From positions 1-64,000 of the forward strand of contig JAFPYX010000025.1 of the NCBI GenBank assembly GCA_017417585.1: a stretch of DNA of 64,000 nt, written 5' to 3'. Positions 3,515 through 18,933 of the stretch are shown piece after piece. Position 1 is the first letter of the stretch; every line of letters begins with the position of its first letter. Position numbers and translations under genes: made by a program. The notes beneath the pieces are model-generated. The model was given only the letters and a program-made list of their open reading frames with translations, had not been told where the DNA came from and did no database searches. The stretch comes from Victivallales bacterium (GTDB lineage: Bacteria; Verrucomicrobiota; Lentisphaeria; Oligosphaerales; Oligosphaeraceae).

Positions 3515-4309
3515 TCATTGAAACTTTTCGCAAAATGCTTTTGCCTGCGCTATCCAACCTGCAAATGTGCTAGGCATGTGGTAGAATTCCAACAACTCCT
3601 CATAAAGAGAAGTTAATGCCGTTATATCATTCAATTTTTCGGCTGCCTTATCGTTAATCAACCAGCCGACGCGTTCTTCTTCCAAATCTGGAAATACGTA
3701 AGCTTTGATTTTCTTGTCGATTGCCCATACCGCACCCATTTCGTTTAAACAAATTTCACTTTCTTTGTAATTCCTCGATACCAAAAGTATGGCAAAATCA
3801 ACAAAGTTGACATTCGTCTGAATATGCTTGCGAAGGTCTTCGCCGTTCTTGATTTTCATGCCATCTATCGATGTGCAGAAGATATCGTTTTGCGACAGTC
3901 CACCGCCTCTAGTCAGCAATGTTACAAAAGCATCGACGATTGCCTTGTCTCGGGACGAATGACTAATAAATACTTTCTTACAAGTTCCTTTGTCCTCGGA
4001 AACCTTTTTCTTTGGCATCAGTTCACATGAATTAATAATCACATTAAGATTATCCAAATCTCGTACCAGTAGACCTAGCCCATAAATGTTAATTCCTTGT
4101 CCCATCACACAACTTGCACTATCCGAAGAAAGAAACTGTTTTTGTGATGCAAAATCATCAGGTAAAGCATTAACTAAAGCACCTACCTCATGGAATAATG
4201 GCTGAAGCGATTGATATAGTATATTAGGCATAATTAGCGACATATTCTTCAGTGCGGATTCTTTGAGCCGCATACATGTCGCTAGAATTGTTCTGTAATC
4301 CTCTTGCAT
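3515..4309 (-). CDS. TIR-domain protein (putative NADase effector), last gene of defence operon
   Basis: A 264-residue protein. Residues 1-105 are an uncharacterised helical part. Residues about 112-225 form a TIR domain: KVFISHSSRDKAIVDAF at the start, DFAILLVSRNY in the centre, then SEICLNEMGAVWA, where Glu190 sits at the position of the catalytic glutamate of NAD-cleaving TIR domains. Bacterial TIR proteins commonly deplete NAD+ or make cyclic ADP-ribose variants when a partner senses phage. It follows the 275-residue gene by 18 bp in the same direction and is the natural candidate for the killing effector of the distal module. The NADase role is inferred from the motif. Confidence 0.85.
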   Translation of the reverse strand: MQEDYRTILATCMRLKESALKNMSLIMPNILYQSLQPLFHEVGALVNALPDDFASQKQFLSSDSASCVMGQGINIYGLGLLVRDLDNLNVIINSCELMPKKKVSEDKGTCKKVFISHSSRDKAIVDAFVTLLTRGGGLSQNDIFCTSIDGMKIKNGEDLRKHIQTNVNFVDFAILLVSRNYKESEICLNEMGAVWAIDKKIKAYVFPDLEEERVGWLINDKAAEKLNDITALTSLYEELLEFYHMPSTFAGWIAQAKAFCEKFQ

Positions 4310-4327
4310 TAACTCTCCTTTAAAAAC

Positions 4328-5155
4328 TTACTTTGTTCCCTTGCTCTGTCGGCGTACCGCACCTATCCGCTTATGCGATTCTTCCTGTTTGGAAAGTTCA
4401 ATCAGCAACAATGCTGTGCGGTATGTATCATCATACAATATTTCCAAATCCGTGTCGGTCATCGAATTAAGAAAATCTTTTTTGTGGGTTCCTTCTTTAT
4501 TATTGTGTCTGATGTTTAGATTGTTAAGACAAAACGAAACATCATCCGCCAACTCATGCAACTGGCCAGACAAATCATTTCGCTTTTGCAATGTGGGTTC
4601 AATGAAATCCCCTATCTGTTTTAGGAGTTTCCGTTTGCCCTCTAATTTACCCTTCATATCAAGTCGGTTGTATTCAAGTATCGCTTTTGCCGTTACCTTG
4701 TCATCAATGTCTTCAATTACACTAGAGGCTAAAGCATCTTTTTTAATAACTGTCCAAAAACCATTGTCGTCTTTTATTCTTTTATAGCCTGTTTTATTGA
4801 GAATGATATCTATATTTTGAAGACATTGTCTCATTACTTGTTCTGCTTCTGGTGGAAAAAAGCTATTATATCCCTCAAAACATGAATCTATAATGTTTAC
4901 AATGACTTCACAATAAAACAACAAACCATCTAACTCTGTTGTATTCCAATAATGTGAGCATCCGTTGAAAAAATCATCGATATCTGTGAATGTTCCACGA
5001 ATTGAACTTGAGCGGAACGCTTCTGCAAGGAATAGTTTAAGTGATACCATGCCTTTATTGCTATAGAAATATGTTTTCTCAAAAATAGTCTGTAATCTGA
5101 TTCTTTCTTGCTGAAAATCAGATATTTCTTCCTGAAGTAAATCTATTAAATGCAT
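4328..5155 (-). CDS. Uncharacterised helical protein of the defence operon
   Basis: A 275-residue, charged, mostly helical protein with no domain I can name. The stretch CLNNLNIRHNN near residue 215 resembles the R-x-x-N/H patterns seen near the ends of some HEPN or abortive-infection proteins, but this is weak. A strong AAGGAG lies before the ATG. The start overlaps the end of the 50-residue frame (5146-5298) by 10 bp, and the TIR gene follows after 18 bp, so it is probably translated with both. A sensor or middle subunit linking the SMC-like ATPase to the TIR effector is possible but unproven. Confidence 0.7.
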   Translation of the reverse strand: MHLIDLLQEEISDFQQERIRLQTIFEKTYFYSNKGMVSLKLFLAEAFRSSSIRGTFTDIDDFFNGCSHYWNTTELDGLLFYCEVIVNIIDSCFEGYNSFFPPEAEQVMRQCLQNIDIILNKTGYKRIKDDNGFWTVIKKDALASSVIEDIDDKVTAKAILEYNRLDMKGKLEGKRKLLKQIGDFIEPTLQKRNDLSGQLHELADDVSFCLNNLNIRHNNKEGTHKKDFLNSMTDTDLEILYDDTYRTALLLIELSKQEESHKRIGAVRRQSKGTK

Positions 5156-5298
5156 GTTCTATCTCCTTCCTTCTTGGCCATGCCGTCCCGTATTGAGTCC
5201 CCAGGAACGAGTTCTGTTCCCCATATGTATTTCTGGAGTTCACCTGCATGGTTTTTAAATTGCCAAATTCGTTTCACGGGGGCGGATGGGTAGTGCAT
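5146..5298 (-). CDS. 50-residue protein translationally coupled to SMC-like ATPase
   Basis: The frame begins at an ATG that shares one base with the TAA of the ATPase gene (TAATG) and reads MHYPSAPVKRIWQFKNHAGE onward to a stop inside the first codons of the 275-residue gene. Both junctions are typical of coupled translation. The composition is protein-like (many charged and aromatic residues) and no other gene occupies the 140 bp. I know no family for it. Three-part ABC systems often have a short middle component at exactly this position, which is the most useful comparison. It could also be a chance frame. Confidence 0.55.
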   Translation of the reverse strand: MHYPSAPVKRIWQFKNHAGELQKYIWGTELVPGDSIRDGMAKKEGDRTCI

Positions 5299-7337
5299 TA
5301 CTCAAGATTACATTTAAGCAGGCGGCTTTGCGTGTCTGTCGCATCAAGTTTACAGATTAACCATGGTTCCTTTTGCAGTTCCTCTGGCGGCGGCTCGGTT
5401 GTCGTGATGATGTATTGGAAATTGGGATTGTCATTGGAGGCTATCTCTATGTCGTGCATTAACTTGAAATAGCCGAGATAGATTGATCTAGTAACGTCGG
5501 ATACACGAGGTCCGTCATGAATCAGAATGCGAGGATGCGTCCCCTTGCCTATGACAGAATAGATCATTGTAGCGATGTCAAAGCAGATATTCTTGACAGC
5601 ATCAAGTGCAGCACTTTGGAGCTCAGCTGAATGATATGATGTTTCCAATCTGATATTACCATCATTGAGTTTAACTCGTCCCACTACCTTTTTCCCAAGA
5701 ACAAAGCGAATGACATTGTTATATAGTACGGAAAAATCATTAGTCGAATAAGCGATCTCATTTCGATATGCAGATATCTCAGCAGAACATTTCTTTTTGT
5801 CGTCATCATATTGATTCTTTTCAGTAGTTATTACATCCAATCTCTGGTTGTCTCTTTGATATCGGGTTATGGCCTCCAGTTTGTTACCTTCCTCTGCCGC
5901 ACGTTGATTTCGTTTTATGTTGATAGCATTGCAGAAGTCATTGAGTTTATTATCTGCATCTTCATATTCCTTCTTCAATGTCATTACATGGTCTTGTTCC
6001 TCGCTGAGGAATTGACAGAACTTTTTAAGTTCTTCAGCACGATCACTTACCTTATCTTGAATATCCGCCCGTCCAATAAGTAGGTTTTCTTTTGATGCTG
6101 TATCCTCGGGCTTGGTATGTTGCGCCGCCCATGGACAATGATGTTCTATAGCAATCTTCATGGGCACACAGCAGTATTTACGTGTCGGATGCTGTTGCGC
6201 AGCTGTTTGAATTTCATCCAACTGTTCATCAGAAAAGTCACTGCCAGAAGTTTGGGTCATTTTCTTCAATTCAATAAAATTTCTTTTGTCTTGCCTGTAT
6301 TTTCGCAGGGCCGCATTGTATTCTTCGGCTGCCCGTTGAAATTCGAACCAAGTATTGTCACGTTCTTTGAGCAACCGTTGGTACTCTTGTTCATCATTTT
6401 GGTCGATACAATATGTTGACAATCTACGCTTGCATTCCTCCAACTTGGCAGTGATATATAATTGGTCCATTGAAGAATCTTCTGCATCATCGTTGCAAAT
6501 GCGACGAAGCCTGTCACGGTCCTCCTGCAAGACGTAAGTCAATATTTCCTGCTGTGATTTAGCATTTTTAATTTTTTGTTCCAACTCTTCCTGACGTGCA
6601 AGTAATTCGCTTTCCTTTGCAACAATGCCAGAAATCAACGAGCGCATAACCAACATGGCTGATTTCTGATTTAGCACAGGTGAGTTGGCAGCACTCAACG
6701 AATTGTCTCTCCATTCGACTAACTTGGTATATTGGCTATCTTGGTCGCGAGTAAAAAGCGGAAGCAGGTGATAGAAGGTGAGTTGAGATTGTCCAGGCAA
6801 TTTGTTAAGAGTAGATATATCATCTTGCAGGGATGACAATGCTTCCTTGAATGATTCGTATTTCCCCCGTTGTGACTCACTATTGAGAAACAAATCTATC
6901 GATGAAGTCTGCATCGAAAAACCATGATATCCAGCAAAAGGTCTGGCAACACACCAATCTATACCCTTCAATCTAAAATGTCCCACTACATATCCTTCTG
7001 GATATTTATGAAAGATAGCTTCACGCAATTGCTCGTTGCCATAGTTACTTTCTCCAAGGAGATAGCGAATCATTCGACAGAGCGTTGTTTTGCCAGTTGC
7101 GTGCCCGGCAATCCTTTGGTCGTCTTCTGCATGGTACTCATTCGGAGGTATTGCCCAGACAATGTTAAGGCCTTTCCTAAAATTGATGCGTCTGATTTCA
7201 CTTTCAGGTTCAGGGGAAAACTTTGAGAGAAAACGCACTTCACATATCCAGAACAAAGGTTCTGGACGTTCGGAACTGATTTCCAATTCCGTGAAACTGG
7301 CATTGTCCAGCGGGAAGAGAAATTCGCTATGCGGCAT
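5298..7337 (-). CDS. SMC/ABC-type coiled-coil ATPase of the defence operon
   Basis: A 679-residue protein from the ATG at 7337, chosen because CAGGAGAG precedes it; an upstream in-frame start lies deep in the previous gene. GHATGKTTL at residues 78-86 is an altered Walker A. A long charged coiled-coil middle (about 230-530) follows, and the C-terminal half has RILIHDGPRVSD as the Walker B/D-loop region and IITTTEPPP near the switch position. This is the layout of SMC/Rad50-like ATPases, close in style to the ATPase component of ABC-three-component and DUF2326-type systems. It overlaps the helicase gene by 11 bp and is coupled to the next small gene by TAATG. The likely role is DNA or damage sensing that licenses the downstream proteins; this is inference. 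Confidence 0.75.
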   Translation of the reverse strand: MPHSEFLFPLDNASFTELEISSERPEPLFWICEVRFLSKFSPEPESEIRRINFRKGLNIVWAIPPNEYHAEDDQRIAGHATGKTTLCRMIRYLLGESNYGNEQLREAIFHKYPEGYVVGHFRLKGIDWCVARPFAGYHGFSMQTSSIDLFLNSESQRGKYESFKEALSSLQDDISTLNKLPGQSQLTFYHLLPLFTRDQDSQYTKLVEWRDNSLSAANSPVLNQKSAMLVMRSLISGIVAKESELLARQEELEQKIKNAKSQQEILTYVLQEDRDRLRRICNDDAEDSSMDQLYITAKLEECKRRLSTYCIDQNDEQEYQRLLKERDNTWFEFQRAAEEYNAALRKYRQDKRNFIELKKMTQTSGSDFSDEQLDEIQTAAQQHPTRKYCCVPMKIAIEHHCPWAAQHTKPEDTASKENLLIGRADIQDKVSDRAEELKKFCQFLSEEQDHVMTLKKEYEDADNKLNDFCNAINIKRNQRAAEEGNKLEAITRYQRDNQRLDVITTEKNQYDDDKKKCSAEISAYRNEIAYSTNDFSVLYNNVIRFVLGKKVVGRVKLNDGNIRLETSYHSAELQSAALDAVKNICFDIATMIYSVIGKGTHPRILIHDGPRVSDVTRSIYLGYFKLMHDIEIASNDNPNFQYIITTTEPPPEELQKEPWLICKLDATDTQSRLLKCNLE

Positions 7338-10300
7338 GGGCGTACTCTCCTGCTTGGGCTGAATTAATGAAAGATGAATGCTTTTCCTGGAACACAGCAA
7401 AGGTATTCAACCAGCGGTTTATTGGTCTTTCTGGCATGGATGGTGCACTGCGACGAATTTCAAGGATTGCAGCGTTCGCATAGTATGCATCCATGACGGC
7501 GTCTTCGGAAACACCTACATCCTCAATTAGTGTCACCTGCAAATCTTTAGAAACGCTGATTTCATGGCGGTCAATCATATGCATGAGCGTTTGCAGCAAC
7601 TCTTCGTTCGGAGCAATGGCATCGGGATAGGCTTTTGTCCATTCCTGTGCGCCAACATCGCTGGATAAAGCCTTGCCAATATCTTTTGGTTCGCGGAGAA
7701 TGCTCCAGCCCGATACCAATTGTTCAAGCGACATGGTTTTACGTTCATTTTGCAGGAGGAATGATGTTATCAACGTCTGCAAATAAGTGTTTCGACTACT
7801 CTTGGCCGTCGTTGACCTTTGATGGGAATCCATGCAGCCAATCTTCTTGAACATGTTTTCCATGCAATCTTGATGTTCAAGGCAAAGCACGTTGCGTTCC
7901 AGCCACTTGTCTTTGTCAGTTCCAGGCCATTTCAGACGGAGGTCTGCTGGCTTTGTGCCCGACATGATGAAAGAATTCAGGATGACCTTCTTGCCACCAG
8001 GCTGTGGCATAGTTGCCTCCCGCTCCTTGATTGTCTGATAGAAGAGGATTTTGGGGTCATCAAAAGGAACGTTGACCAGTCCTTTCGGGTCAATGAAATT
8101 GATATATTGTCTGGTGGGCGTGTCTATCCAAAGGATGTAATCTGGATAGAAATTGCCTGCTTCAAAGAATCCCATGCCAACCTTGCTCTTATTGCGCAAA
8201 AGGTAAAGATTCTTGCCACTGAAGTCAGCGACATGCACATCCATATAGTTTTTGAGTAAATCGACAAAGCCTTTCTCGTCCTCGTTAAGTGAAATCGGTG
8301 ACACCTGTATTTTTAATGATGATCCTTTTATGCAAATCAACGGAGCATACAGGTGGTTACGAAAGTCAAATGCCAGAAGGCGTTGCTTAAAGACTTTTTC
8401 ATATTGAGCAAGGCCACGATCTTTCTCAAGAATTTTTTCAATGTCATCAAGGAAGGCTTCGAGTGCGTCGCCGGTTGGATCATCAGAATTATCCCTTGTG
8501 TAGGTAATATGGTAGCCATCAACAGGGAAATTGGCATCTTTGGATGTCAGGAGCTGATAGGTCATGAATGGACTTTCCCATGCGTTTTTATAATGCGTGT
8601 AAAAGCGGTCCATGTAGTTTTTCAGCACGAGTGTCGCGTACTCATTCATGGCCAACAAATTTTCAAAAGAACCAAGTTGGATGTGGTTTTTAGGGATAAT
8701 AAGCTGGTAAAGTCCTTCTGTCCGCAAAATCTCCTTCAATCTATTCTTGTCAATTGTAATGTTGAAAAATCCCTTTTCATTCTTATGAAGCTCAAGTTCA
8801 AAGAAAATGGCATCATAGTTAAGGTAATCAAGTGCTTCGTCCGGTATTGTATGAGTTTCGCTAAGTGCAGTTCTTTCAAGGTTATAAGTGGAATCAATGG
8901 TCTGGACTTTGGCACGACAATCAATAATGATTTTGCTTTTGGTGATATACGTCATCAAATCAGCATCGGGAACGTCGAAAAGCAAACGTGCAGATTGCTT
9001 GCGGAAATCCTTGCCGGGAGCAACTCGGATAACGTGGAGATGAAGCCCCATTATTTCATTCAAACGATTAATAACAGGGAGCCGGAACTCAAAGACATTA
9101 TCATTTACAGGAAGCTCTTCAACTTGCAGATAGTTCCGGAAGTCTTCCATATATTGGGCTTTAATGCCAAAAATAGTCAACGTCTCCAAAACATGCAGAT
9201 GATTGGGAGGGGTAATGCTCTTGAGGCGAGAACTTCGTTTCAGGCAACCTTGGAAGCCACGCAGCCGCACGCCACGTCCGAAGAGCTGGATGGCCTGACT
9301 TCCCTCGCCTTTTGCAAAATTTATGAGTCCCATCGTGGAAACTCGCCAACTGTTCCAGCCTTCTGTAAACTTGCGTGAACCAATCAGGATGTTGATTTTT
9401 GATTCTTTGTTGTTGATACTGCGGAAGAAGGAATAGGAAACAAATTCCTCGTCTTTGCCGATGATTCCTTTGTCCTCGCACATTTTGCGTAATTTTGCAG
9501 TGTCGCCAATGCTGATTACCCCAAAGTACTCACCATCGCCACCTACGCGGAGAGCTATTTCGCCTTGAATTTGTTTCAGTGTCACAACCTGAAGACGAGG
9601 CTCATCCGCAGTTGTGGTAGAATTGAAAACAAGCCGAAGGATATCCATGTAGATGGCTTCAACATCCAGTTCCAAAGTGCCGAATAAATCGCGCAACGGC
9701 TGGAACACTGTCGAAAAGAGTTCATTGCCATTGCCATCGACCAATCCTGTATCATCAGCAAACAAAGCATTGATTCGTGCAATACTTTTGGTCTTATTCC
9801 GCAGAAACTGGTCAAGGAAGGCAATGACTTCCTCAACATCCGTCAATTCTGCTTCCGTCGTACTGGCTGTAACGCGATTGCCGACATAGACCAGAAGCGG
9901 ACGTTCAACCATGTATGCCGCGAAATCGGATTTATCTTCCTGGAATACCTTGACTTGCTGGTAAAATGAGAGCAGACACCCAACGAGATAAATCTGTCTG
10001 GACTCCTCATCGATTCCGCTACGAAGGTTGTAAATGCGGTAGTCCTTGCCATAGCCATCGTCATAGAAGAATTTATAGGAGTAGTCCATGATGATGGAAC
10101 GTCCGTATTCTTCCATCAACTTTTTCTCCTCTGCGGCCTTGCCTGATTTCAATGCCTGTTTGAAAGTGGCGGAGTATTCAAAGGCAAAGCCGTTGGCCGA
10201 AAGTCTGGTCCGATAATCATACCAGACATTACCAGACATTCCACGATGGCCCTCGTCAACCAGTACAAGGTTATTCTGCTCAAATTGGTCAACTGAGACG

Positions 10301-11070
10301 GTCTTGACCTTGCCCTCCTCCTTCAACTTGTTCATGTCGATGACCAAGACGTCCGCCTGGTGCAAATTGATGGTGTCTTCCTTATGGAACAAGGTTGCCG
10401 ATATGTTGGATAGTTTCAATTCCTCCAAATGCTGATTGGACATGTTCTCATTTGGGGCAAGAACAATTATCTTGTTGATTGCCAAATGATTGTTCTGATG
10501 CCTTGCCCGATTCAAGTAGTGCATGAACTGAAGTATGTTCATGTGCATCAGCAATGTCTTTCCGCTGCCCGTGGCGCACATGAATGCCAGCTTATTCAAG
10601 CCATCTTCCGTAAAATGGGGGATACTTAGCCGGAAGAAGGATTCAGCGGTTATCTTATCCAAATACGCATTCAGTTCATCAACAAACGCTTTTTTGTCGG
10701 AGAAATAGCGGTCGAGAAAGATTTCAGTGAAAAGCAGGGAAAGGTACTGGAAGTATTTCCATGTCAGGCCACCACGCTTTTCGGCAATCTGTCTTGTATG
10801 GCGCATGATGTTCTCATCGTAGATCCGCAGCCGCTCCACAGGAATCTGGCACTTCATGATTTCCGCTTTCCAGGCCAGCCAGCGGTAGAAGTTGCTGTTC
10901 TGGTTTTCATCCAATCCTTCTGATTCTTTGAAGTCATCCGGCAAACCAGACAGGCTGTTTTTCTTGAAGACACCGCTGTCTATGCCCAGAATGTGCAGAA
11001 AATAACGGAAAAGCACCAGCTGTTCGCCAAAGGTAACAGGAGCTTCTTTCTTCTTCAGTCTGGTGCCCAT
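7327..11070 (-). CDS. DEAD/DEAH helicase with C-terminal nuclease-like domain (type III Res-like)
   Basis: A 1247-residue protein. ATGSGKT at 166-172 is the Walker A, VDEGH at 271-275 the DEAH-box variant, and QLFGRGVRLRG near 600 helicase motif VI. Around residues 975-1000 the sequence FYPDYILWIDTPTRQY then FIDPKG has the spacing of a PD-(D/E)xK nuclease site as in Res subunits of type III restriction enzymes. Type III Res acts with a Mod methyltransferase; a Mod-like gene lies four genes upstream in this operon. The last 200 residues are an extra helical tail of unknown role. It starts 2 bp after the DUF4276 stop codon. Confidence is high for the helicase and moderate for nuclease activity. 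Confidence 0.85.
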   Translation of the reverse strand: MGTRLKKKEAPVTFGEQLVLFRYFLHILGIDSGVFKKNSLSGLPDDFKESEGLDENQNSNFYRWLAWKAEIMKCQIPVERLRIYDENIMRHTRQIAEKRGGLTWKYFQYLSLLFTEIFLDRYFSDKKAFVDELNAYLDKITAESFFRLSIPHFTEDGLNKLAFMCATGSGKTLLMHMNILQFMHYLNRARHQNNHLAINKIIVLAPNENMSNQHLEELKLSNISATLFHKEDTINLHQADVLVIDMNKLKEEGKVKTVSVDQFEQNNLVLVDEGHRGMSGNVWYDYRTRLSANGFAFEYSATFKQALKSGKAAEEKKLMEEYGRSIIMDYSYKFFYDDGYGKDYRIYNLRSGIDEESRQIYLVGCLLSFYQQVKVFQEDKSDFAAYMVERPLLVYVGNRVTASTTEAELTDVEEVIAFLDQFLRNKTKSIARINALFADDTGLVDGNGNELFSTVFQPLRDLFGTLELDVEAIYMDILRLVFNSTTTADEPRLQVVTLKQIQGEIALRVGGDGEYFGVISIGDTAKLRKMCEDKGIIGKDEEFVSYSFFRSINNKESKINILIGSRKFTEGWNSWRVSTMGLINFAKGEGSQAIQLFGRGVRLRGFQGCLKRSSRLKSITPPNHLHVLETLTIFGIKAQYMEDFRNYLQVEELPVNDNVFEFRLPVINRLNEIMGLHLHVIRVAPGKDFRKQSARLLFDVPDADLMTYITKSKIIIDCRAKVQTIDSTYNLERTALSETHTIPDEALDYLNYDAIFFELELHKNEKGFFNITIDKNRLKEILRTEGLYQLIIPKNHIQLGSFENLLAMNEYATLVLKNYMDRFYTHYKNAWESPFMTYQLLTSKDANFPVDGYHITYTRDNSDDPTGDALEAFLDDIEKILEKDRGLAQYEKVFKQRLLAFDFRNHLYAPLICIKGSSLKIQVSPISLNEDEKGFVDLLKNYMDVHVADFSGKNLYLLRNKSKVGMGFFEAGNFYPDYILWIDTPTRQYINFIDPKGLVNVPFDDPKILFYQTIKEREATMPQPGGKKVILNSFIMSGTKPADLRLKWPGTDKDKWLERNVLCLEHQDCMENMFKKIGCMDSHQRSTTAKSSRNTYLQTLITSFLLQNERKTMSLEQLVSGWSILREPKDIGKALSSDVGAQEWTKAYPDAIAPNEELLQTLMHMIDRHEISVSKDLQVTLIEDVGVSEDAVMDAYYANAAILEIRRSAPSMPERPINRWLNTFAVFQEKHSSFINSAQAGEYAHAA

Positions 11071-11072
11071 GA

Positions 11073-11756
11073 TTACTCCTCTTCTTGAAGGGCTTCAATA
11101 GCCGACAACCATTCGTTGAACAACGGGCATTTTTCACGCATTGTATCAAGACCAATCTTATGGGCAATCGCAATGCCATCAGTTGTTTTGGAATAGTCTG
11201 GTTTCCACTGCTCCAAACGCTTTGATGGAGCTGTGTTCGGGCTATTGTTGATTTGTTCTGGATTGCCACATTCCTCAAGCACATGTTCCACTGTTGTAGT
11301 AGAAACGCCCATTTCGTCAGCTAAGATTTGACTATTGCTGAAAAGTAGTGCCTCAAATTCATGGACGGCCATGTAAGGGAGAAAGCGTTGCTTTATATTG
11401 AGTTTATCTGAGTCCCTTTCTTTTTCAAGTTCGGCTGTTGCAGCTTGATTTAATATGTCAGCAATTTGTTGTGGCGGGGAATTTGCCGGAATGCTCTCCT
11501 TATTGGGCCATTCCTTAAGACCATAATAATCTACAAAGTAAGAGACATGTGTTGCTTCTTTTCCTTTAAGATGGCTTAATACATCCCTTTTAACGCGTTC
11601 AAACTTCACATCTCCACCATTCTGTCCTTTTTTGGTAAGAACGGTAGGCTTGATAACAATACTCCTGGTTTTGAGAAAAGGGGCCACTATTTCCTTGATG
11701 AACTTTTCCTCTGTTTGCCCCTCCACAACTACTTTGACAATTACTTGCTTACTCAT
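11073..11756 (-). CDS. DUF4276-type protein paired with AAA ATPase
   Basis: A 227-residue protein beginning MSKQVIVKVVVEGQTEEKFI; this ATG is preferred over one six codons earlier because GGAGGGA precedes it. The opening VEGQTEEKF, the central HEFEALLFS and the C-terminal PSKRLEQW are hallmarks of DUF4276. This family is usually encoded beside an AAA ATPase and is thought to be TOPRIM-like, with the glutamate of the VEGQTE motif as a metal ligand. It overlaps the ATPase gene by 8 bp. The pair parallels ATPase/TOPRIM-type abortive systems such as PARIS or OLD-type proteins; that functional parallel is inference. Confidence 0.8.
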   Translation of the reverse strand: MSKQVIVKVVVEGQTEEKFIKEIVAPFLKTRSIVIKPTVLTKKGQNGGDVKFERVKRDVLSHLKGKEATHVSYFVDYYGLKEWPNKESIPANSPPQQIADILNQAATAELEKERDSDKLNIKQRFLPYMAVHEFEALLFSNSQILADEMGVSTTTVEHVLEECGNPEQINNSPNTAPSKRLEQWKPDYSKTTDGIAIAHKIGLDTMREKCPLFNEWLSAIEALQEEE

Positions 11757-12873
11757 GGACAGTCCCTCCCTCAATCACGTTTTTCGTCCAGAGTTCTCCA
11801 ACGGAGTAATCATCAAGCCAGGTGGTATAATCCTCCTCCTTTAGCCGTTCAAAAGTTGATGCGCCGTCTTGCCGCCTGGCGACGATAATGTCTTTTAGAG
11901 CAAACTGGTCAATTAAGAGAGGCGATTGCGTCGCAACGATGACTTGTGTTTTCTTGGCGGCAGAGGAAATCATCTCCCCAAGAATTTGAATGGCCTCTGG
12001 ATGCAGGCCCAATTCTGGTTCATCAATCACAATAGTTGTCGGGGGATTGGGTTGCAATAAAGCAGTTGCGAGGCAAATGAATCGAATGGAACCATCGGAA
12101 AAATGGTAAGGCTGCATAGGATAGTCTGTTCCTTTTTGTTTCCATGTCAGCTTAACCTTCCTTGCTTCACCCATCTGGATAACATCCAACGAAAAGTCAT
12201 CAAAAAAGGGAATGACAAGCTGAATTGCATTTCTTATCTTTTCGTAGCACTTTGTCTCATTTTCGCGCAAATACAACAAAAATGGTGCGATGTTGCTCCC
12301 ATCTTCTCTAAGTTTTTTACAATCTTCCACTATTTCTGAACGGCGCATCGGCGCATTTTCCCCCGTGTCATGAAAATGATAAACCATCCATTGGGATATG
12401 GCATCATAGACAAAATACCCTACACCATTCCAGTTCCCATCCCACGATGACTCGTTTTTTTGCTCGGCAAGTCTGCTTTCCAATGACGGACTTCCGTATG
12501 TTTTCCAGTTAAAATCCTTATATTTTCTTTCCTCAGTGAGCAACATTTCTTCTGAAACAGTTGAAGACATTGTGAAACGATAGAAATTCGAGCCATCAGA
12601 ATAAGCACTATTTGAGGAAAATTCAAATTCAACACTGATTGCAGGAGTTTCCTTCAACCCATGAAATGGAAATGCATCTGCCCCGCCATTCATCTTTATG
12701 TAATTCTGAAATGCTCCCTGTGACATGGCAAGCAGCATTTTGAAAATCTGTATAAAATTGCTCTTGCCAGCACCATTGGCACCGACGATGACATTGAGAT
12801 TATTAAGCTCAAAATCCTTAAGCTCTCTTATGGACTTGAAGCCCTCAACAGAAATGCGTTTTATTGCTCCCAT
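11749..12873 (-). CDS. AAA_21-type ATPase (OLD/RecF-like)
   Basis: A 374-residue protein. GANGAGKSNF at 31-40 is the Walker A following the typical opening ISVEGFKSIRELKDFELNNL. The C-terminal part has the signature region SDGSIRFICLATALL, Walker B TIVIDEPELGLHPEA and QVIVATQSPLLIDQF, the arrangement of AAA_21/RecF-like ATPases without a coiled coil. It starts one base after the methyltransferase gene ends and overlaps its DUF4276 partner. Such ATPases usually restrain or trigger the partner protein in defence. Its place inside a restriction operon suggests a back-up response when restriction is blocked, though nothing in the sequence proves that. Confidence 0.85.
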   Translation of the reverse strand: MGAIKRISVEGFKSIRELKDFELNNLNVIVGANGAGKSNFIQIFKMLLAMSQGAFQNYIKMNGGADAFPFHGLKETPAISVEFEFSSNSAYSDGSNFYRFTMSSTVSEEMLLTEERKYKDFNWKTYGSPSLESRLAEQKNESSWDGNWNGVGYFVYDAISQWMVYHFHDTGENAPMRRSEIVEDCKKLREDGSNIAPFLLYLRENETKCYEKIRNAIQLVIPFFDDFSLDVIQMGEARKVKLTWKQKGTDYPMQPYHFSDGSIRFICLATALLQPNPPTTIVIDEPELGLHPEAIQILGEMISSAAKKTQVIVATQSPLLIDQFALKDIIVARRQDGASTFERLKEEDYTTWLDDYSVGELWTKNVIEGGTVHE

Positions 12874-12874
12874 A

Positions 12875-15800
12875 TTACGCCTCCTCGAACATCCGTTCCT
12901 TGAATTCCGGTTCGATCATGCGGACCTTCCAAGTTTCATCGTCCTTGCGGAGATTCTCCACATTGTTGTCGCCATTGACATAGATGATGGAGAACTCACG
13001 GTCGGCGGGATTGATGCGGTAGCGGGCAAAATAGGCGTCCAAAGCCGCGTTGCTTTCCTTGAGATTGTCACTGATGTTGCGCCAGATGATGAGCACCCGT
13101 TGCCCGTCGCGAAGCGTTCCTTCCACTTGGCGGAAGGTGTATTTCCCATTCGCATCGGAAACAAGTTCCACAGCGCCCTCGTATTCGCCATTGGCTTGTG
13201 GAACCGCGTTGAAGGAACGCCTGGCGAAAATACGCTTGACCGTCAGACCTATCAGATAATTGAAAGTCTCCACCAAATCCACTGCGGTCTTCTTTGTCTC
13301 ATTCTTCTCCGTGATGTTCAGCTGGTAGTTGAATGGCTCCTTGAACGCCTCCAAGTTCAGAATACTCCCCGTGGCGTCCAAGTCAAGAATGTACTTCAGC
13401 AAATACTCATCACCAAAGAGTGAAAGCATTCCCTGTGTGCGCTCTTCATCTGGCAATTCAATGTTCGAAAGCGCATCCTCGTAGGATTCCAACGATAGGT
13501 ATTTGAAACAGTGCGAAATATCTATTTTTTTAAGTCTAGGAAGAATATAATCAAAAAACTGATTTCCCATTTCAACACCAATCCAGCGTCGTTTCATTTT
13601 TGACGCAACAGCCATTGTTGTTCCACTTCCAGCAAAATAATCCATGATATAATCATTATTTTGAGAAGATACGTTAATAACTCTAGTTAACAAAACTTCT
13701 GAATTTTCTGTTGAAAAACCTGTTGAACTGGAATAACCAGCAATATCCATCCAATTAGTATCAAGTATCTGTTTGTTTGTTGCTTCGACACGATATTGAG
13801 GAGTGGCTTCTGCACAACCACATTTGGGACAAACTGACCAAGTGCCTTCCGTATGGATAAAAGAACATTTTTTACATTGTAGTCGAATCCTTTTAGTCAT
13901 AACCATTTCATCCATTCTCTCTTGTGAAAATTTAAAATGTGCATCTCTTTTATATGGATAGAAAGTCTTACCAAAAAGAATCCTTTCTGGTGGATTTCTA
14001 AAACCAGCAGAATCATCAGTGCGTCGCCAATATGCTTCTCGAGGTTCTTTTAAATATAAATATGGATCAATATAATAACTATCAAATGATTTGAAATACA
14101 AGAATAATGAATCATTTGCAAGTGGCAAAGTAATTCTTCCCTGTTCTGTAACATTTTTGCGAATCCTTTGCACCAACAATTCAGCTTGAAGCAGATCATT
14201 TGAGAATACAGAATTACCAATAAATCTGACAAGATGATTTCCATTATAGTCACATCTAATAAACTGCATTCCATTATTACATAATAAATCATATGACATT
14301 TTTAATCTATCATATAATAAGGATGCCCAAGTAGAGTCTTTATAATCAGTCCTATACAAAAAGTCTCCATTTTCTTTAAGATTAAAGGGAGGATCAATAT
14401 AAATTGATTGTATTCTCCCCTTAAATAAGTTATATAATAAATTTAGAGCATTAAAATTCTCTGAATGGATAAGCAAACCATCGCACTGTTCATCGAAATC
14501 ATCGATGGTGGCGATAAGTCTTTCTTTGAAATCATCCGAGAAGAACTTCGTGTCTAGGACAAGATTCGATTGCTTTTTCAGAAACTCTATAGAGGACAAT
14601 GGCGTCGCCAAATCAAATGTTCCATTCTTCTCCTTTTTCAAATCTGCATTTTCTATCCAAACAAGTTTTTCGTCTGATAAATCACAGGCGTAGGCAACAT
14701 CGTGCTTTTCGTCAAAATAGACAGTGATATCTGTAACGGGAAGCGTCACATTATCCCAAGTGAAACCATTGCCAAACTCGACATCGCAAAAGCCCAATTT
14801 AGCCCATTCCTGCCATTGCGGCTGATTTTTCGCAATCTCTTCATAGAACGTTTCCGGCACGCGGTCGAGTGTGATGCAGTAGTTGGTAGAGACGACGAAC
14901 TTCTTCTTCAGCCAAAGTTTCTTTTGGAAGTTTTCGATTTGGGAGAGGAAGTCGATGATGACCTTGCCGACGCGCTTGATGGCCCGTACCTGCGCCATCC
15001 AACTGGCGACTTGTTTTTCGTTGGTGGTATCGACATCATCCAAGTGCATGACTTCATTCTTGATGTAGAAATCCAATTCGCGGGAAAGGAAGCCGCCCAA
15101 GTCCTTGTGGATGAAATAGTCGAAGGTGTTTTTCGCGACGTATGCCTTGAGATGCTTGCCCAGAAGCGTCAATGATTTCTTCGGGTCCTGCGAGATGGGA
15201 TTCAATAAAAACAGTAGCGGTTTGCATTCATTGGCAATCCACGTGGTGATGCGCTTCTCATTGTCCGTGGCATAGTCGAACTTCTTGTCTGCTGGAATGT
15301 CAAACGTGAAGCGGATGAAGAGTTCTTTGCGTTCCGCGTCGAATTCAAAGGTTTTGATGTCAGGCTGCTCCTGTGTCTCGTTGTAGAGCATGAAGACGCG
15401 TTTGGAATCGGCGGATTCCTTGTTGTTGTTCTGTTCCGTCGTGGCGTCCACAAGCCGAAAGTGAATCGTATAGCCCTCGGCCACGAAGGTGTAGTCCTTG
15501 AAGTTCTCGCTTGTCTTGATGTAGTATTGGTCCTGATTTGCCCAGTAGAGCTTGACTTCCTCCCCCTCGTAGGGAATGGCATAGACACCTTCCTTGTAGC
15601 GGCGCTTGGAGATGAAGTCTCCTTCTTCATAGTAGCGGCTGAAGAAGCTCAAGAGGTGGGAATAGACATCCGCCTCCAAACCTGACAAATCGACGCCTTT
15701 GGCAAGTTGCGTCTTCAGGTCGGCATACTCTTTAACCATCGGAATCGCCTGGGGCAAGGCCGCAATCGCCGCTCCATCCCCCAACTGTTTTTCGATTTCG

Positions 15801-16033
15801 AGAATGCGTTTTTCGATTTCAGTAGTGTCTGCCGCAAATGGCGCCAATGTCTCCTGAACTCTTTTCGGCAGGCCTTCGGAGAGAAATTTCTCTATCTCCT
15901 TCTTCCGAATATTCATGATGCGGTAGATGCCAAAGTCCAGGTCGGCCTTGTCAATCTCAAAGATTTCCCGCAGGCGTTCTATCAGTCGATTGAGTTGTTC
16001 GGAAGCATTCATGGTCATTCCCTTGTCATTCAT
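12875..16033 (-). CDS. Adenine-specific DNA methyltransferase, Mod-like (beta class)
   Basis: A 1052-residue protein with an extended N-terminal region of about 520 residues. The SAM/catalytic core follows: IYIDPPFN near residue 546 is catalytic motif IV and DYFAGSGTTMAVA near 795 is the SAM-binding motif, in the IV-before-I order of beta-class N6-adenine enzymes. Between them lies a target-recognition part with a four-cysteine zinc-ribbon pattern (CKKC, then CPKCGC, about 715-740). The DNA coding for about residues 520-845 (13.5-14.5 kb) is much AT-richer than both flanks, as if exchanged. The gene shares an ATGA overlap with the SNF2 gene; an internal ATG at 16012 with AAGGGA is an alternative start. 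It presumably marks self DNA for the Res-like helicase. Confidence 0.9.
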   Translation of the reverse strand: MNDKGMTMNASEQLNRLIERLREIFEIDKADLDFGIYRIMNIRKKEIEKFLSEGLPKRVQETLAPFAADTTEIEKRILEIEKQLGDGAAIAALPQAIPMVKEYADLKTQLAKGVDLSGLEADVYSHLLSFFSRYYEEGDFISKRRYKEGVYAIPYEGEEVKLYWANQDQYYIKTSENFKDYTFVAEGYTIHFRLVDATTEQNNNKESADSKRVFMLYNETQEQPDIKTFEFDAERKELFIRFTFDIPADKKFDYATDNEKRITTWIANECKPLLFLLNPISQDPKKSLTLLGKHLKAYVAKNTFDYFIHKDLGGFLSRELDFYIKNEVMHLDDVDTTNEKQVASWMAQVRAIKRVGKVIIDFLSQIENFQKKLWLKKKFVVSTNYCITLDRVPETFYEEIAKNQPQWQEWAKLGFCDVEFGNGFTWDNVTLPVTDITVYFDEKHDVAYACDLSDEKLVWIENADLKKEKNGTFDLATPLSSIEFLKKQSNLVLDTKFFSDDFKERLIATIDDFDEQCDGLLIHSENFNALNLLYNLFKGRIQSIYIDPPFNLKENGDFLYRTDYKDSTWASLLYDRLKMSYDLLCNNGMQFIRCDYNGNHLVRFIGNSVFSNDLLQAELLVQRIRKNVTEQGRITLPLANDSLFLYFKSFDSYYIDPYLYLKEPREAYWRRTDDSAGFRNPPERILFGKTFYPYKRDAHFKFSQERMDEMVMTKRIRLQCKKCSFIHTEGTWSVCPKCGCAEATPQYRVEATNKQILDTNWMDIAGYSSSTGFSTENSEVLLTRVINVSSQNNDYIMDYFAGSGTTMAVASKMKRRWIGVEMGNQFFDYILPRLKKIDISHCFKYLSLESYEDALSNIELPDEERTQGMLSLFGDEYLLKYILDLDATGSILNLEAFKEPFNYQLNITEKNETKKTAVDLVETFNYLIGLTVKRIFARRSFNAVPQANGEYEGAVELVSDANGKYTFRQVEGTLRDGQRVLIIWRNISDNLKESNAALDAYFARYRINPADREFSIIYVNGDNNVENLRKDDETWKVRMIEPEFKERMFEEA

Positions 16034-18933
16034 TTCAACGTCCAGTGCAAGACGAACAGAGGTTGCTCTGTAACAGTCTGGACGAGCTTCTTTTTCAGTG
16101 CGGAAAGAATTTGTGCACGTTTGGCTTCGGCGGCATCCTCCACGGCATCAATGTTACGACGTGCCTTGGAAAGTTTTTTCTCCAATTGCGCAGCCAGTTC
16201 CGTTGCCTCTGTCTGTTCCGTCAAATTGGCTGCATTTTCGATGGCGCGCCTGGCCGCCTTAAGTTCGGCACGAATGGTGTCAACGGTATGCTGCGCTGCC
16301 TTCACCTGGTCATCCTGCCAGCGTTCCAATTGTGCCTGGCGTTCTTTGAAAAGTTTGTTGGATGTCTCCAGCTCTCGTTGTGCCGTGGCATTGGAGAGCA
16401 AAGACGCCTCCTTTTGCAGACGTGCTTCCACGTCTGGGGTAATACTGTGAGGCTCTCCCATGGCGCCATCCAGGCTGAAGAATTGTTCCAGAACATCCGT
16501 TGGAATGCTTTGCCTGTCTTCCGTGAAACCGGAGAAGAGAAGAGAATCTTCCGTGTCGATTCCTTCGGCGATTCGCTTGTTCAGAAACATCCAGCCGGAT
16601 TTTCCCTTCATTTGCTCCAGCACGGATATTTTCCCATGATAACCGGAAATGTCAAATGTCACATCGCACACAGGCGGATGAAGCTGAGATGCTGCATTTA
16701 GGCACCAATTGCCCAATTCACAGTTGGTACGATAAATGTGGCCGTACTCCTTATTCTCTCCTTTGTCCTCATTTCTTCGCAAATCCGACTTTGGCTTCAA
16801 TGCATAGAGGCCAGCGGGAATATCTTCCTCTGGAGGTTGACGCAAAGTGAAGGTCAATGCTTCGTCATTGAAATCCGCACGTTCTTTCAGCATGAATTCT
16901 GTAAGACGCCAGAATTTGCGACCATATTCACCTAGGCAATCCAGCGCCTCGTCATAGTCGATTTTCAGGATTTGACGTACCGAATCGTCAAAGTTTTCCA
17001 GTACCTGGCGTCGCGTCTGCCGCATTTTGTCATTGATTTCCGCTTCAAGTTCGGCCTGAAGCTGGTCAAATCTCGCCTGGATTTCCTCCTCTGTGCGACA
17101 TTGTTGGTAGAGCTCCAAAATCTTGCGCTCCAGTCCAACGCCGCTTTCCAACTGGCCAAGCACTTCATCGGAAGCTCCGAATACCCCATTGAACAACCGG
17201 AATTTGCTCGTCAGCAATTCATAGACACGTTTATCGGCTGCATTCCTTTCATTGAGGAAGTTGATGACGACCACGTCGTGTTTCTGCCCATACCGATGGC
17301 AACGGCCAATCCGCTGTTCGATGCGCTGCGGATTCCACGGCAGGTCATAATTGATGACAAGAGAACAGAACTGCAGGTTGATTCCTTCTGCTCCGGCTTC
17401 AGTCGAAATCATGATTTTTGCCTTGGTGCGGAAGTTCTCCACCAAGGCATGGCGCATCATGATGGCCTTGCTGCCTTCCGTATTCACTTCTGAATTATAG
17501 CGGTTGTCGGCCATGAACTCCGTATAAATCATTTCGGCAACAGGGTCTTTCTTGCCGCCGCCTGAATAGCAGACAACTTGTCCTTTGTATCCATGCTGCT
17601 CAAGATAGGTTCGCAGATAGTACATGGAGCGACGTGATTCCGTGAAGATGACCGTTTTCTCCTCTGCGCCTAGTTCGCGCATTTTGGTCCAGCCTTGCTG
17701 CAGTGCAGTCAACAGGCTTTCCGTTTTCGTGTCCACAGTGACGTCATACGTCATGTGGATAAAGTGGTCCAGTTCATCTATCTCCTTCTGGAGTTTCTTC
17801 ATGTCAATAACTTTGTGATTTTCTTCAGGAGGCTCTTCATCCTCCACTTCATCATCCAGAAGTTCGGTTTCGTCAAGATAATCATCCAGTGCATCCACGT
17901 CCAGCAAGACATCTTCTGGAATGTCCTCATCTTTGTTTTCGTCCCGCAAGGCAATCAATCTGGCCTTGATTGCCTCCAAAGTACTACGCAATGCGTTCGT
18001 GCTGGATGCCAAAAGCTTTCGCACGACGAGTGTAATCAACTGGCGTTGCCCCTGGGGGAAGGCATAGCAGTCCTGTTGTTGAAGAAAACGAGATACAGCA
18101 TCATAGAGTCTTTGCTCTGCTTCCTGGGGGATAAAACGCATGGTAAGCAGGCGGCGTTCTGTATAGCGGATGTATTCCGCCACATCCTTGCGCAGAGTGC
18201 GTCGGCAAAAGGATGCCAGTCGCTTACGTAGCCCTTCGATATCTCCGCCAGCATTGGCATACATGTTACGGAAACTCGGCAGGTCGGGAAACATCTCTTC
18301 GTCAATGAGGGTGGCAATGCCATATAGCTCAGACAACGAGTTCTGCAAAGGGGTTGCTGTGAGAAGAATCTTCCGACGTTCGCTTAAAGCCCAGCGCAGA
18401 CGTTGACCGATTTTGCTGCTTTGACGATATGAATTGCGCAATTTGTGAGCTTCGTCGATTACAACCAGCGACCATTCTATCGCTCGTAAATCTTCCGCCA
18501 TTTTGCTTGCGAAATGATAAGATGTAATGATGATATCATTTGTTGAAAATGGCCTAGGTCTCCCGTTTCGCGTCGCTTGATTATATGACTTGGCATCAAG
18601 TATTGTTGCTCTAAGGTTGAATTTATCCTCCAATTCAACCTGCCATTGCTTACGTAGTGATGCAGGACAAATGACCAGTAAGTGCCGTTTCCTTTCAGCA
18701 TTGAACTGACATAGCACCAAGCCAGCTTCAATCGTTTTTCCAAGACCAACTTCATCGGCAAGCAGAACCCCTTTGGAAATTGGAGAATGCATCGCAAATA
18801 GGGCAGCTTCAACCTGATGCGGGTTTAAATCCACCGATGCGTCAAAGAGGGATTGACTCAGACGCTCCAGCCCCTCTCCACCACGACGCGTTAGCTCGTT
18901 GGCAAAATAAATTGCATGGAAAGGAGTAATCAT
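16030..18933 (-). CDS. SNF2-family helicase
   Basis: A 967-residue protein. DEVGLGKTIEAG (60-71) is the Walker A of SNF2 ATPases and VVIDEAHKLRN (157-167) the DEAH box; TATPLQN and the helicase C half with EGINLQFCSLVINYDLPWNP and QRIGRCHRYGQ follow. An acidic insert (DDEVEDEEPPEE) lies between the two lobes. The C-terminal 300 residues are a coiled coil (RAELKAARRAIENAANL). SNF2 proteins of this layout occur in DISARM-like and other methylase-linked defence loci, where they probably translocate on DNA. It overlaps the HTH gene before it and the methyltransferase gene after it by 4 bp each. Confidence 0.9.
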   Translation of the reverse strand: MITPFHAIYFANELTRRGGEGLERLSQSLFDASVDLNPHQVEAALFAMHSPISKGVLLADEVGLGKTIEAGLVLCQFNAERKRHLLVICPASLRKQWQVELEDKFNLRATILDAKSYNQATRNGRPRPFSTNDIIITSYHFASKMAEDLRAIEWSLVVIDEAHKLRNSYRQSSKIGQRLRWALSERRKILLTATPLQNSLSELYGIATLIDEEMFPDLPSFRNMYANAGGDIEGLRKRLASFCRRTLRKDVAEYIRYTERRLLTMRFIPQEAEQRLYDAVSRFLQQQDCYAFPQGQRQLITLVVRKLLASSTNALRSTLEAIKARLIALRDENKDEDIPEDVLLDVDALDDYLDETELLDDEVEDEEPPEENHKVIDMKKLQKEIDELDHFIHMTYDVTVDTKTESLLTALQQGWTKMRELGAEEKTVIFTESRRSMYYLRTYLEQHGYKGQVVCYSGGGKKDPVAEMIYTEFMADNRYNSEVNTEGSKAIMMRHALVENFRTKAKIMISTEAGAEGINLQFCSLVINYDLPWNPQRIEQRIGRCHRYGQKHDVVVINFLNERNAADKRVYELLTSKFRLFNGVFGASDEVLGQLESGVGLERKILELYQQCRTEEEIQARFDQLQAELEAEINDKMRQTRRQVLENFDDSVRQILKIDYDEALDCLGEYGRKFWRLTEFMLKERADFNDEALTFTLRQPPEEDIPAGLYALKPKSDLRRNEDKGENKEYGHIYRTNCELGNWCLNAASQLHPPVCDVTFDISGYHGKISVLEQMKGKSGWMFLNKRIAEGIDTEDSLLFSGFTEDRQSIPTDVLEQFFSLDGAMGEPHSITPDVEARLQKEASLLSNATAQRELETSNKLFKERQAQLERWQDDQVKAAQHTVDTIRAELKAARRAIENAANLTEQTEATELAAQLEKKLSKARRNIDAVEDAAEAKRAQILSALKKKLVQTVTEQPLFVLHWTLK

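Follow-up and report, generated by a model that had tools for sequence, protein, structure and literature searches.

Genes found as accessories within a restriction operon are commonly taken to guard that operon, and the locus described here allows a comparative test of this view. Within the 64,000-nucleotide stretch of a Victivallales bacterium contig that was analysed (JAFPYX010000025.1; hereafter the window), an ABC-type ATPase gene and a DUF4276 gene are nested inside a restriction operon, which raises the question of whether this pair guards its host operon or is a self-sufficient passenger within it. The initial annotation had placed the two genes exactly between a methyltransferase (MOD) and a Res-like helicase (RES) gene and this was borne out by the gene calls: all lie on the minus strand, with 1 nt between the MOD stop and the ATPase start and 2 nt between the DUF4276 stop and the RES start (Table 1). 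What that annotation had not included is that the operon starts with an SNF2 helicase gene, giving the order SNF2-MOD-[pair]-RES, and that both the methyltransferase and Res are type III-like; the MTase_III and REase_III models are matched in one operon, and Mod and Res are adjacent in relatives that carry no insert.

Table 1. Features of the SNF2-MOD-RES operon and its neighbour in the window
Feature	Coordinates	Strand	Basis
SNF2 helicase, first gene of the operon, DrmD-like	16030..18933	-	Pfam SNF2-rel_dom 1.2e-38; PADLOC DrmD 6.5e-200
MOD, type III-like N6/N4 DNA methyltransferase	12875..16033	-	Pfam N6_N4_Mtase 5e-24; PADLOC MTase_III 1.3e-156
ABC-type ATPase (AAA_21), HEC-01A, predicted sensor	11749..12873	-	Pfam AAA_21 9e-35; PADLOC HEC-01A 6.2e-135
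DUF4276, HEC-01B, predicted OLD-type Toprim nuclease effector	11073..11756	-	Pfam DUF4276 6.5e-52; PADLOC HEC-01B 5e-72
RES, type III-like restriction helicase/nuclease	7327..11070	-	Pfam ResIII 2.9e-10; PADLOC REase_III 7.3e-181
MOD-RES junction, the cargo slot that holds the pair	11071..12874	-	Slot census of 72 evaluable operons
LmuB-like SMC-type gene adjoining the 3' side of RES, a neighbour outside the pair	5298..7400	-	PADLOC LmuB 3.7e-10

The ATPase and DUF4276 genes overlap by 8 nt, the DUF4276 ATG (11756) spanning the ATPase stop (ATGAGTAA); the listed TTG start at 11774 is unlikely because relatives align from the in-frame ATG at 11756. A consensus scan for promoter-like sites serving the pair returned 24, against 18.5 (sd 5.1) in shuffled sequence, and thus distinguished no internal promoter. 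In RES a PD...DPK motif was spotted by eye (NFYPDYILWIDTPTRQYINFIDPKG), and MOD is a mosaic when set against its nearest relative (G208), residues 2-416 being 83% identical and residues 478-1051 only 50%, a pattern that looks as it would after a swap of the recognition part. The SNF2 helicase resembles DrmD of the DISARM system. Membership of DISARM was considered and rejected, since the SNF2 protein falls below the NCBIfam DrmD cut-offs (670.7 bits against DrmD_b, for which the cut-off is 950) and none of the 8 operon and neighbour proteins had DrmA, DrmB or DrmC as its best match. A literature search on the combination of SNF2, type III restriction and DrmD, with bioRxiv and most subscription journals outside its scope, found no paper. 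Behind RES, window positions 3515-7400 hold the LmuB-like gene, which likely starts at an ATG near 7337, then a gene of 275 aa and a TIR gene (spbK model, 1.9e-32). Together these make a Lamassu-like cluster that includes a TIR protein; in the related locus L015, too, RES is followed by LmuB.

The initial annotation had further likened the pair to ATPase/Toprim-like pairs of the OLD and PARIS types, and both sequence and fold matches agree with this. For the ATPase, PDB sequence matches include OLD (6p74) and AriA of PARIS (8ux9). Its structure model is of no more than fair quality (pLDDT 78), and its fold matches include the ABC heads of PtuA, Rad50 and SMC as well as that of OLD. A toxin-antitoxin reading, suggested by the mention of AbiEii in the Pfam description of AAA_21, was rejected as no antitoxin-type partner was matched, the partner being DUF4276.

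DUF4276 is described in Pfam only as a domain of unknown function, and a literature search on it, again with bioRxiv and most subscription journals outside its scope, found no paper. Searching the PDB by sequence gave nothing stronger than E 0.95. The structure model (pLDDT 90) has as its best PDB folds the C-terminal Toprim domains of OLD proteins, with a Foldseek probability of 1.00 to 6njv/6nk8 and Z scores of 8.7-9.4 (VIA: Z 9.4, 180 residues aligned), alongside archaeal PH0156 (Z 9.1), AriB of PARIS (Z 8.5 over 173 residues, 11% identity) and GajA (Z 7.5). Acidic residues are strongly conserved across 41 sequences: E12 and E16 in 39, D76 in 40, and E133 and E135 in all 41. DUF4276 is therefore predicted, from its modelled fold, to be an OLD-type Toprim nuclease with E12, E16, D76, E133 and E135 as its putative metal-site residues. 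Judged by the offset between the aligned ranges, the AriB counterpart of E12 would be E26, which was mutated in PMC12409363 (in excerpt). In L015 (positions 9554-10252) DUF4276 carries K at position 12 in place of the conserved Toprim Glu while the operon looks intact, and the effector of that locus is possibly inactive. The effector evolves faster than the ATPase between L135 and L151 (dN 0.199 versus 0.082).

The kind of pair is already known as a named candidate, HEC-01, which was reportedly defined in a preprint by Payne et al. in 2024. Both PADLOC models are matched near full length, HEC-01A over ATPase residues 3-370 of 374 and HEC-01B over DUF4276 residues 11-230 of 233, and the genes are adjacent; the two-gene order and the embedding in another defence system are likewise shared. 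However, the host here is a type III-like SNF2-MOD-RES operon and not Hma (helicase, methylase, ATPase), and PADLOC gave neither HmaB nor HmaC among the best matches of the operon proteins; the phrase ‘Hma embedded candidates’ comes from a table in PMC10855318, as excerpted. With PARIS the pair shares a separate ABC ATPase gene followed by a gene for a Toprim-fold effector, as well as the AriB-like fold of DUF4276, whereas in sequence DUF4276 matches no AriB model, only the HEC-01B models of PADLOC, and the ATPase fits HEC-01A far better than AriA (447.9 bits versus 115.6 bits, the latter at 1e-33). According to an excerpt of PMC12409363, AriA holds AriB, a tRNase, until Ocr or similar proteins bind. 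The OLD family (classes 1 and 2, and GajA of Gabija) also combines an ABC ATPase with a Toprim domain, and excerpted text of PMC10568477 has class 2 OLD Toprim domains cutting DNA. Unlike in that family, the two domains here are on two genes and there is no UvrD-like helicase partner. Accessory genes within restriction operons, there of type I, are furthermore found with PrrC/RloC and RloA/RloB, and the pair may be related to RloA/RloB-type genes. PrrC is embedded in RM loci (PMC12629846, in excerpt) and is silenced by the linked type I enzyme (PMC2610378, in excerpt). PrrC, however, is one protein, kept silent by its restriction enzyme, whereas the pair described here survives without the enzyme. 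That defence genes can be embedded in other defence systems has already been published (PMC12255303 and PMC12988326, both in excerpt).

A survey of homologous operons with and without the pair was carried out from a scan for MOD, which gave 79 loci, or 80 with the window, 72 of them evaluable in having MOD and RES on the contig. By raw gap length 42 junctions were shorter than 150 nt and 30 longer; after two loci were recounted as having no insert (L073, in which MOD is split, and L051, whose 164-nt gap holds no gene of its own), the MOD-RES junction is without insert in 44/72 and with insert in 28/72, the inserts of L060, L063 and L067 being counted from gap length alone. The pair is thus no invariable part of the operon, and the 44 operons lacking any insert at the junction show it to be dispensable for restriction, as far as gene content can tell. 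It accounts for seven of the 28 inserts (the window, L015, L042, L043, L062, L071 and L082), and its presence at this junction is more than chance because the same junction holds it in six other loci; in L062 a Ppl-like gene follows it. A PADLOC scan of 20 proteins from the MOD-RES slot revealed other defence cargo: NsnA, NsnB and NsnC in L049 and L065 (NsnC weak in L049), SoFic in L059, with whose insert those of L087 and L090 cluster, PDC-S02 in L041 and L050 (L089 clustering along), PDC-S13 also in L050, a HEC-06-like gene in L088 and an AriA/Nsn/OLD-like gene in L019. The inserts of L029, L048 and L072 gave no PADLOC match.

The operons have a second slot, between SNF2 and MOD, which is filled in 10 of the 50 loci in which both genes were seen (L088, where the SNF2 gene is split, was counted as unfilled). 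In L085 ATPase genes with partners occupy both slots of one operon (7091-8885 and 11966-13782), and these two ATPases are relatives of one another and of an ATPase from L091. A family of ~270-284 aa proteins was also observed at the MOD-RES junction of three Firmicutes (L048:13196-14014, L057:13186-13989 and L079:4325-5179) and is a candidate for further defence cargo; its L048 member, the only one scanned, had no PADLOC match.

The distribution of the pair extends well beyond this operon. In the phylum sample PF14103 was found in 57/387 genomes, 44 of them above the cut-off, and MOD in 12/387 at a threshold of 1e-60; the genome of the window has a single DUF4276 copy. Forty DUF4276 places were fetched, making 41 with the window, and an ATPase gene lies directly upstream of DUF4276 in 36 of the 39 loci with a DUF4276 hit, the other three ending at a contig edge. 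Three of these 40 places (L159, L162 and L163) were found by the Pfam model but escaped our own DUF4276 profile, and a more divergent branch of DUF4276 therefore exists. Among the matches listed, an N6 methyltransferase lies within ~7 kb in at least 9 of the 41 places (the window, L147, which is the same as L015, L133, L132, L143, L153, L126, L159 and L163), a figure to be read with the caution that part of the places are on short contigs and that the PF02384 matches were covered at their stronger end, so that a nearby methyltransferase can be missed; Pfam was run on 20 flanking proteins, hand-picked from the 40 fetched places. The settings differ: in L133 the pair sits in the SNF2-MOD slot of the same kind of operon, in L132 it is flanked by Mod and Res of a type III system of another kind, and in L126 (3122-11579), a BREX-like locus, it has a pglX-like Eco57I methyltransferase gene on one side and pglZ on the other. 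Further sets searched gave 2 loci in viral_contigs and 12 plasmid records, and none in the phage records searched. The pair thus occurs in other hosts and alone.

If the pair belonged to its host operon, the two would be expected to share a history, and the trees speak against this. The MOD tree (79 rows, quick LG+G4) left out L047 and L083, which are short, and included L133 as a carrier although its pair sits in the other slot. The pair label needs five changes on this tree, all five forced by well-supported branches. In MOD the window and L015 are sisters (support 100), and the two loci are 76% identical in SNF2, 64% in MOD, 77% in RES and 69% in LmuB, while their ATPases and DUF4276 proteins share 50% and 49%; holding the two pairs together was rejected (p_AU 1e-4). 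By these comparisons the pair does not follow its host operon. The closest operon-borne pair is that of L133, with 76% identity in the ATPase, 56% in DUF4276 and 83% in SNF2, against 42% in MOD and 40% in RES; as this pair, nearest by both genes, is also in this kind of operon, a host preference is possible. A dedicated lineage of nested pairs was tried and rejected, as on the pair tree the slot-borne pairs need six changes rather than one, although well-supported branches force only three.

The two genes of the pair have also been re-paired, as their trees conflict. From the pair tree were left out L147 (same contig as L015), L001, L002 and L014 (copies of the window or L015) and the divergent L160, L161 and L165, and from the re-pairing test additionally the fragment L158. 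The ATPase tree unites the window with L133, L135, L137 and L151 (100/99), a clade rejected by the DUF4276 data (p_AU 0.002), and the DUF4276 tree unites L015 with L135, L137 and L151 (100/99), a clade rejected by the ATPase data (0.0003), with p-values that are indicative given that the clades were chosen after viewing pairwise identities. An exchange of the effector gene between ATPase lineages would be the simplest account of this conflict, and the re-pairing suggests that sensor and effector are swappable.

The most direct view of the pair outside an operon comes from four loci in which a relic of the MOD C-terminus lies directly upstream of an intact pair (L135, 7.4e-13; L131, 8.4e-11; L151, 1.1e-10; L129, 4.8e-7). 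Such relics accompany 4 of the 33 pairs outside an intact slot, while a control of 273 windows before other genes gave a single match, to the MOD of L133, which is a real one. Downstream of the four relic-bearing pairs no start of RES could be found. In L151 an LmuB tail lies directly behind the pair, and RES and most of LmuB are therefore gone; CRISPR-like repeats were seen by eye directly behind this LmuB relic and orphaned pair (L151:1-760, around TCCCCACGTGTGTGGGGA). A MOD match at 1e-60 is absent from three of the four relic genomes, and the fourth, G191 (L135), has one on another contig. Between L135 and L151 dN/dS (NG86) is ~0.13 for the ATPase and ~0.15 for DUF4276 and both genes have therefore remained under purifying selection, though some of the period covered may date from before the restriction genes were lost. 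The relics could have arisen by decay of the operon around a pair that stayed in place, or by a move of the pair together with a fragment of the operon. In either case the nested state came first, and the pair functions, or at least endures, without the restriction operon.

Several explanations of the nesting have to be weighed against these results. That the pair is an integral or accessory subunit of the restriction enzyme would accord with its position within the operon and its near-zero spacing, but is so improbable that it can be set aside, the slot census having rejected it with 44 of 72 homologous operons free of any insert and the pair itself being without the operon in most places. 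Only slightly better placed, and still very unlikely, is a guard of the PrrC type, in which MOD or RES would bind and silence the pair until inhibition or loss of the enzyme freed the toxin. The position in the operon, the overlapping or nearly touching genes and the precedent of PrrC silenced by its linked type I enzyme (PMC2610378, in excerpt) point this way; yet it fits badly because the orphaned pairs outlasted the restriction genes, intact pairs persisting beside a MOD relic in L129, L131, L135 and L151 and three of these four genomes having no MOD match at 1e-60, and most copies of the pair, among the matches listed, have no restriction neighbour. The proposal of the initial annotation therefore stands in part: a nested OLD/PARIS-type pair that is not needed for restriction is upheld, while a guard dedicated to this restriction system is not, given that the junction also takes unrelated defence genes, that most copies of the pair lie away from any methyltransferase among the matches listed (at least 9 of 41 places have one nearby), and that four intact pairs outlived a decayed MOD.

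An autonomous pair could nonetheless serve as an alarm and be nested for that reason, answering Ocr-like inhibitors as PARIS does and backing up the restriction or BREX host to which it would be functionally matched. The AriA/AriB-like fold and gene order, the nesting in SNF2-MOD-RES, another type III system and BREX, the sensing of Ocr by PARIS (PMC12409363, in excerpt) and the proposal of PARIS-like modules in BREX loci as backup effectors (PMC12839542, in excerpt) are all consistent with this. However, at least 9 of the 41 places, a minority among the matches listed, lie near a methyltransferase, and the junction also accommodates SoFic, Nsn and PDC genes, for which a tie to anti-restriction is not evident; the role is possible but rather doubtful. 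Similarly tentative is the proposal that DUF4276 cuts phage DNA directly, in the manner of OLD or Gabija, and not host tRNA, so that the defence would be non-suicidal and complement RES; the folds that DUF4276 matches best belong to the DNA-cutting Toprim domains of class 2 OLD proteins (PMC10568477, in excerpt), but AriB, a tRNase (PMC12409363, in excerpt), is nearly as close at Z 8.5, and the fold does not tell the substrate. It should also be considered that functional synergy, instead of neutral cargo, could lie behind the repeated joint presence.

We favour, with a probability of roughly 0.6, the reading that the pair is an autonomous split-OLD (PARIS-like) two-gene defence module, carried as exchangeable cargo at the MOD-RES junction and expressed from the host operon. 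Judging from fold and family, an oligomer of the ATPase would sense a cue of infection and hold or license the DUF4276 Toprim nuclease, which would then cut host or phage nucleic acid and so halt the infected cell. By being nested the pair probably gains a promoter as well as a place within a mobile defence island, and a functional dependence on MOD or RES would not be needed.

As far as the literature was searched, novelty lies in the slot census of SNF2-MOD-RES operons, in the pairs left behind as orphans, in the exchange of partners between ATPase and DUF4276 genes and in the assignment of DUF4276 to the Toprim fold, though parts of these findings may already stand in Krishnan et al. 2020 or Payne et al. 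2024. The value of this locus for the guard question lies in its comparison set, in which the same pair is found nested, in the second slot, by itself, and left behind next to a decayed methyltransferase; these orphaned copies speak for nesting here as, in the main, the capture of self-sufficient cargo. DUF4276 gains a concrete prediction, that of an OLD-type Toprim nuclease with named residues. A wider conjecture, unlikely to hold as a whole, is that the MOD-RES junction serves as a permanent landing place for defence cargo and that the HEC-01 pair is modular twice over, moving as a whole from operon to operon and from slot to slot, with its ATPase and Toprim genes also exchanged separately. 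If true, the module would couple the sensing of anti-restriction proteins to different nucleases, and the pair would stay as an immune scar after the loss of the restriction genes.
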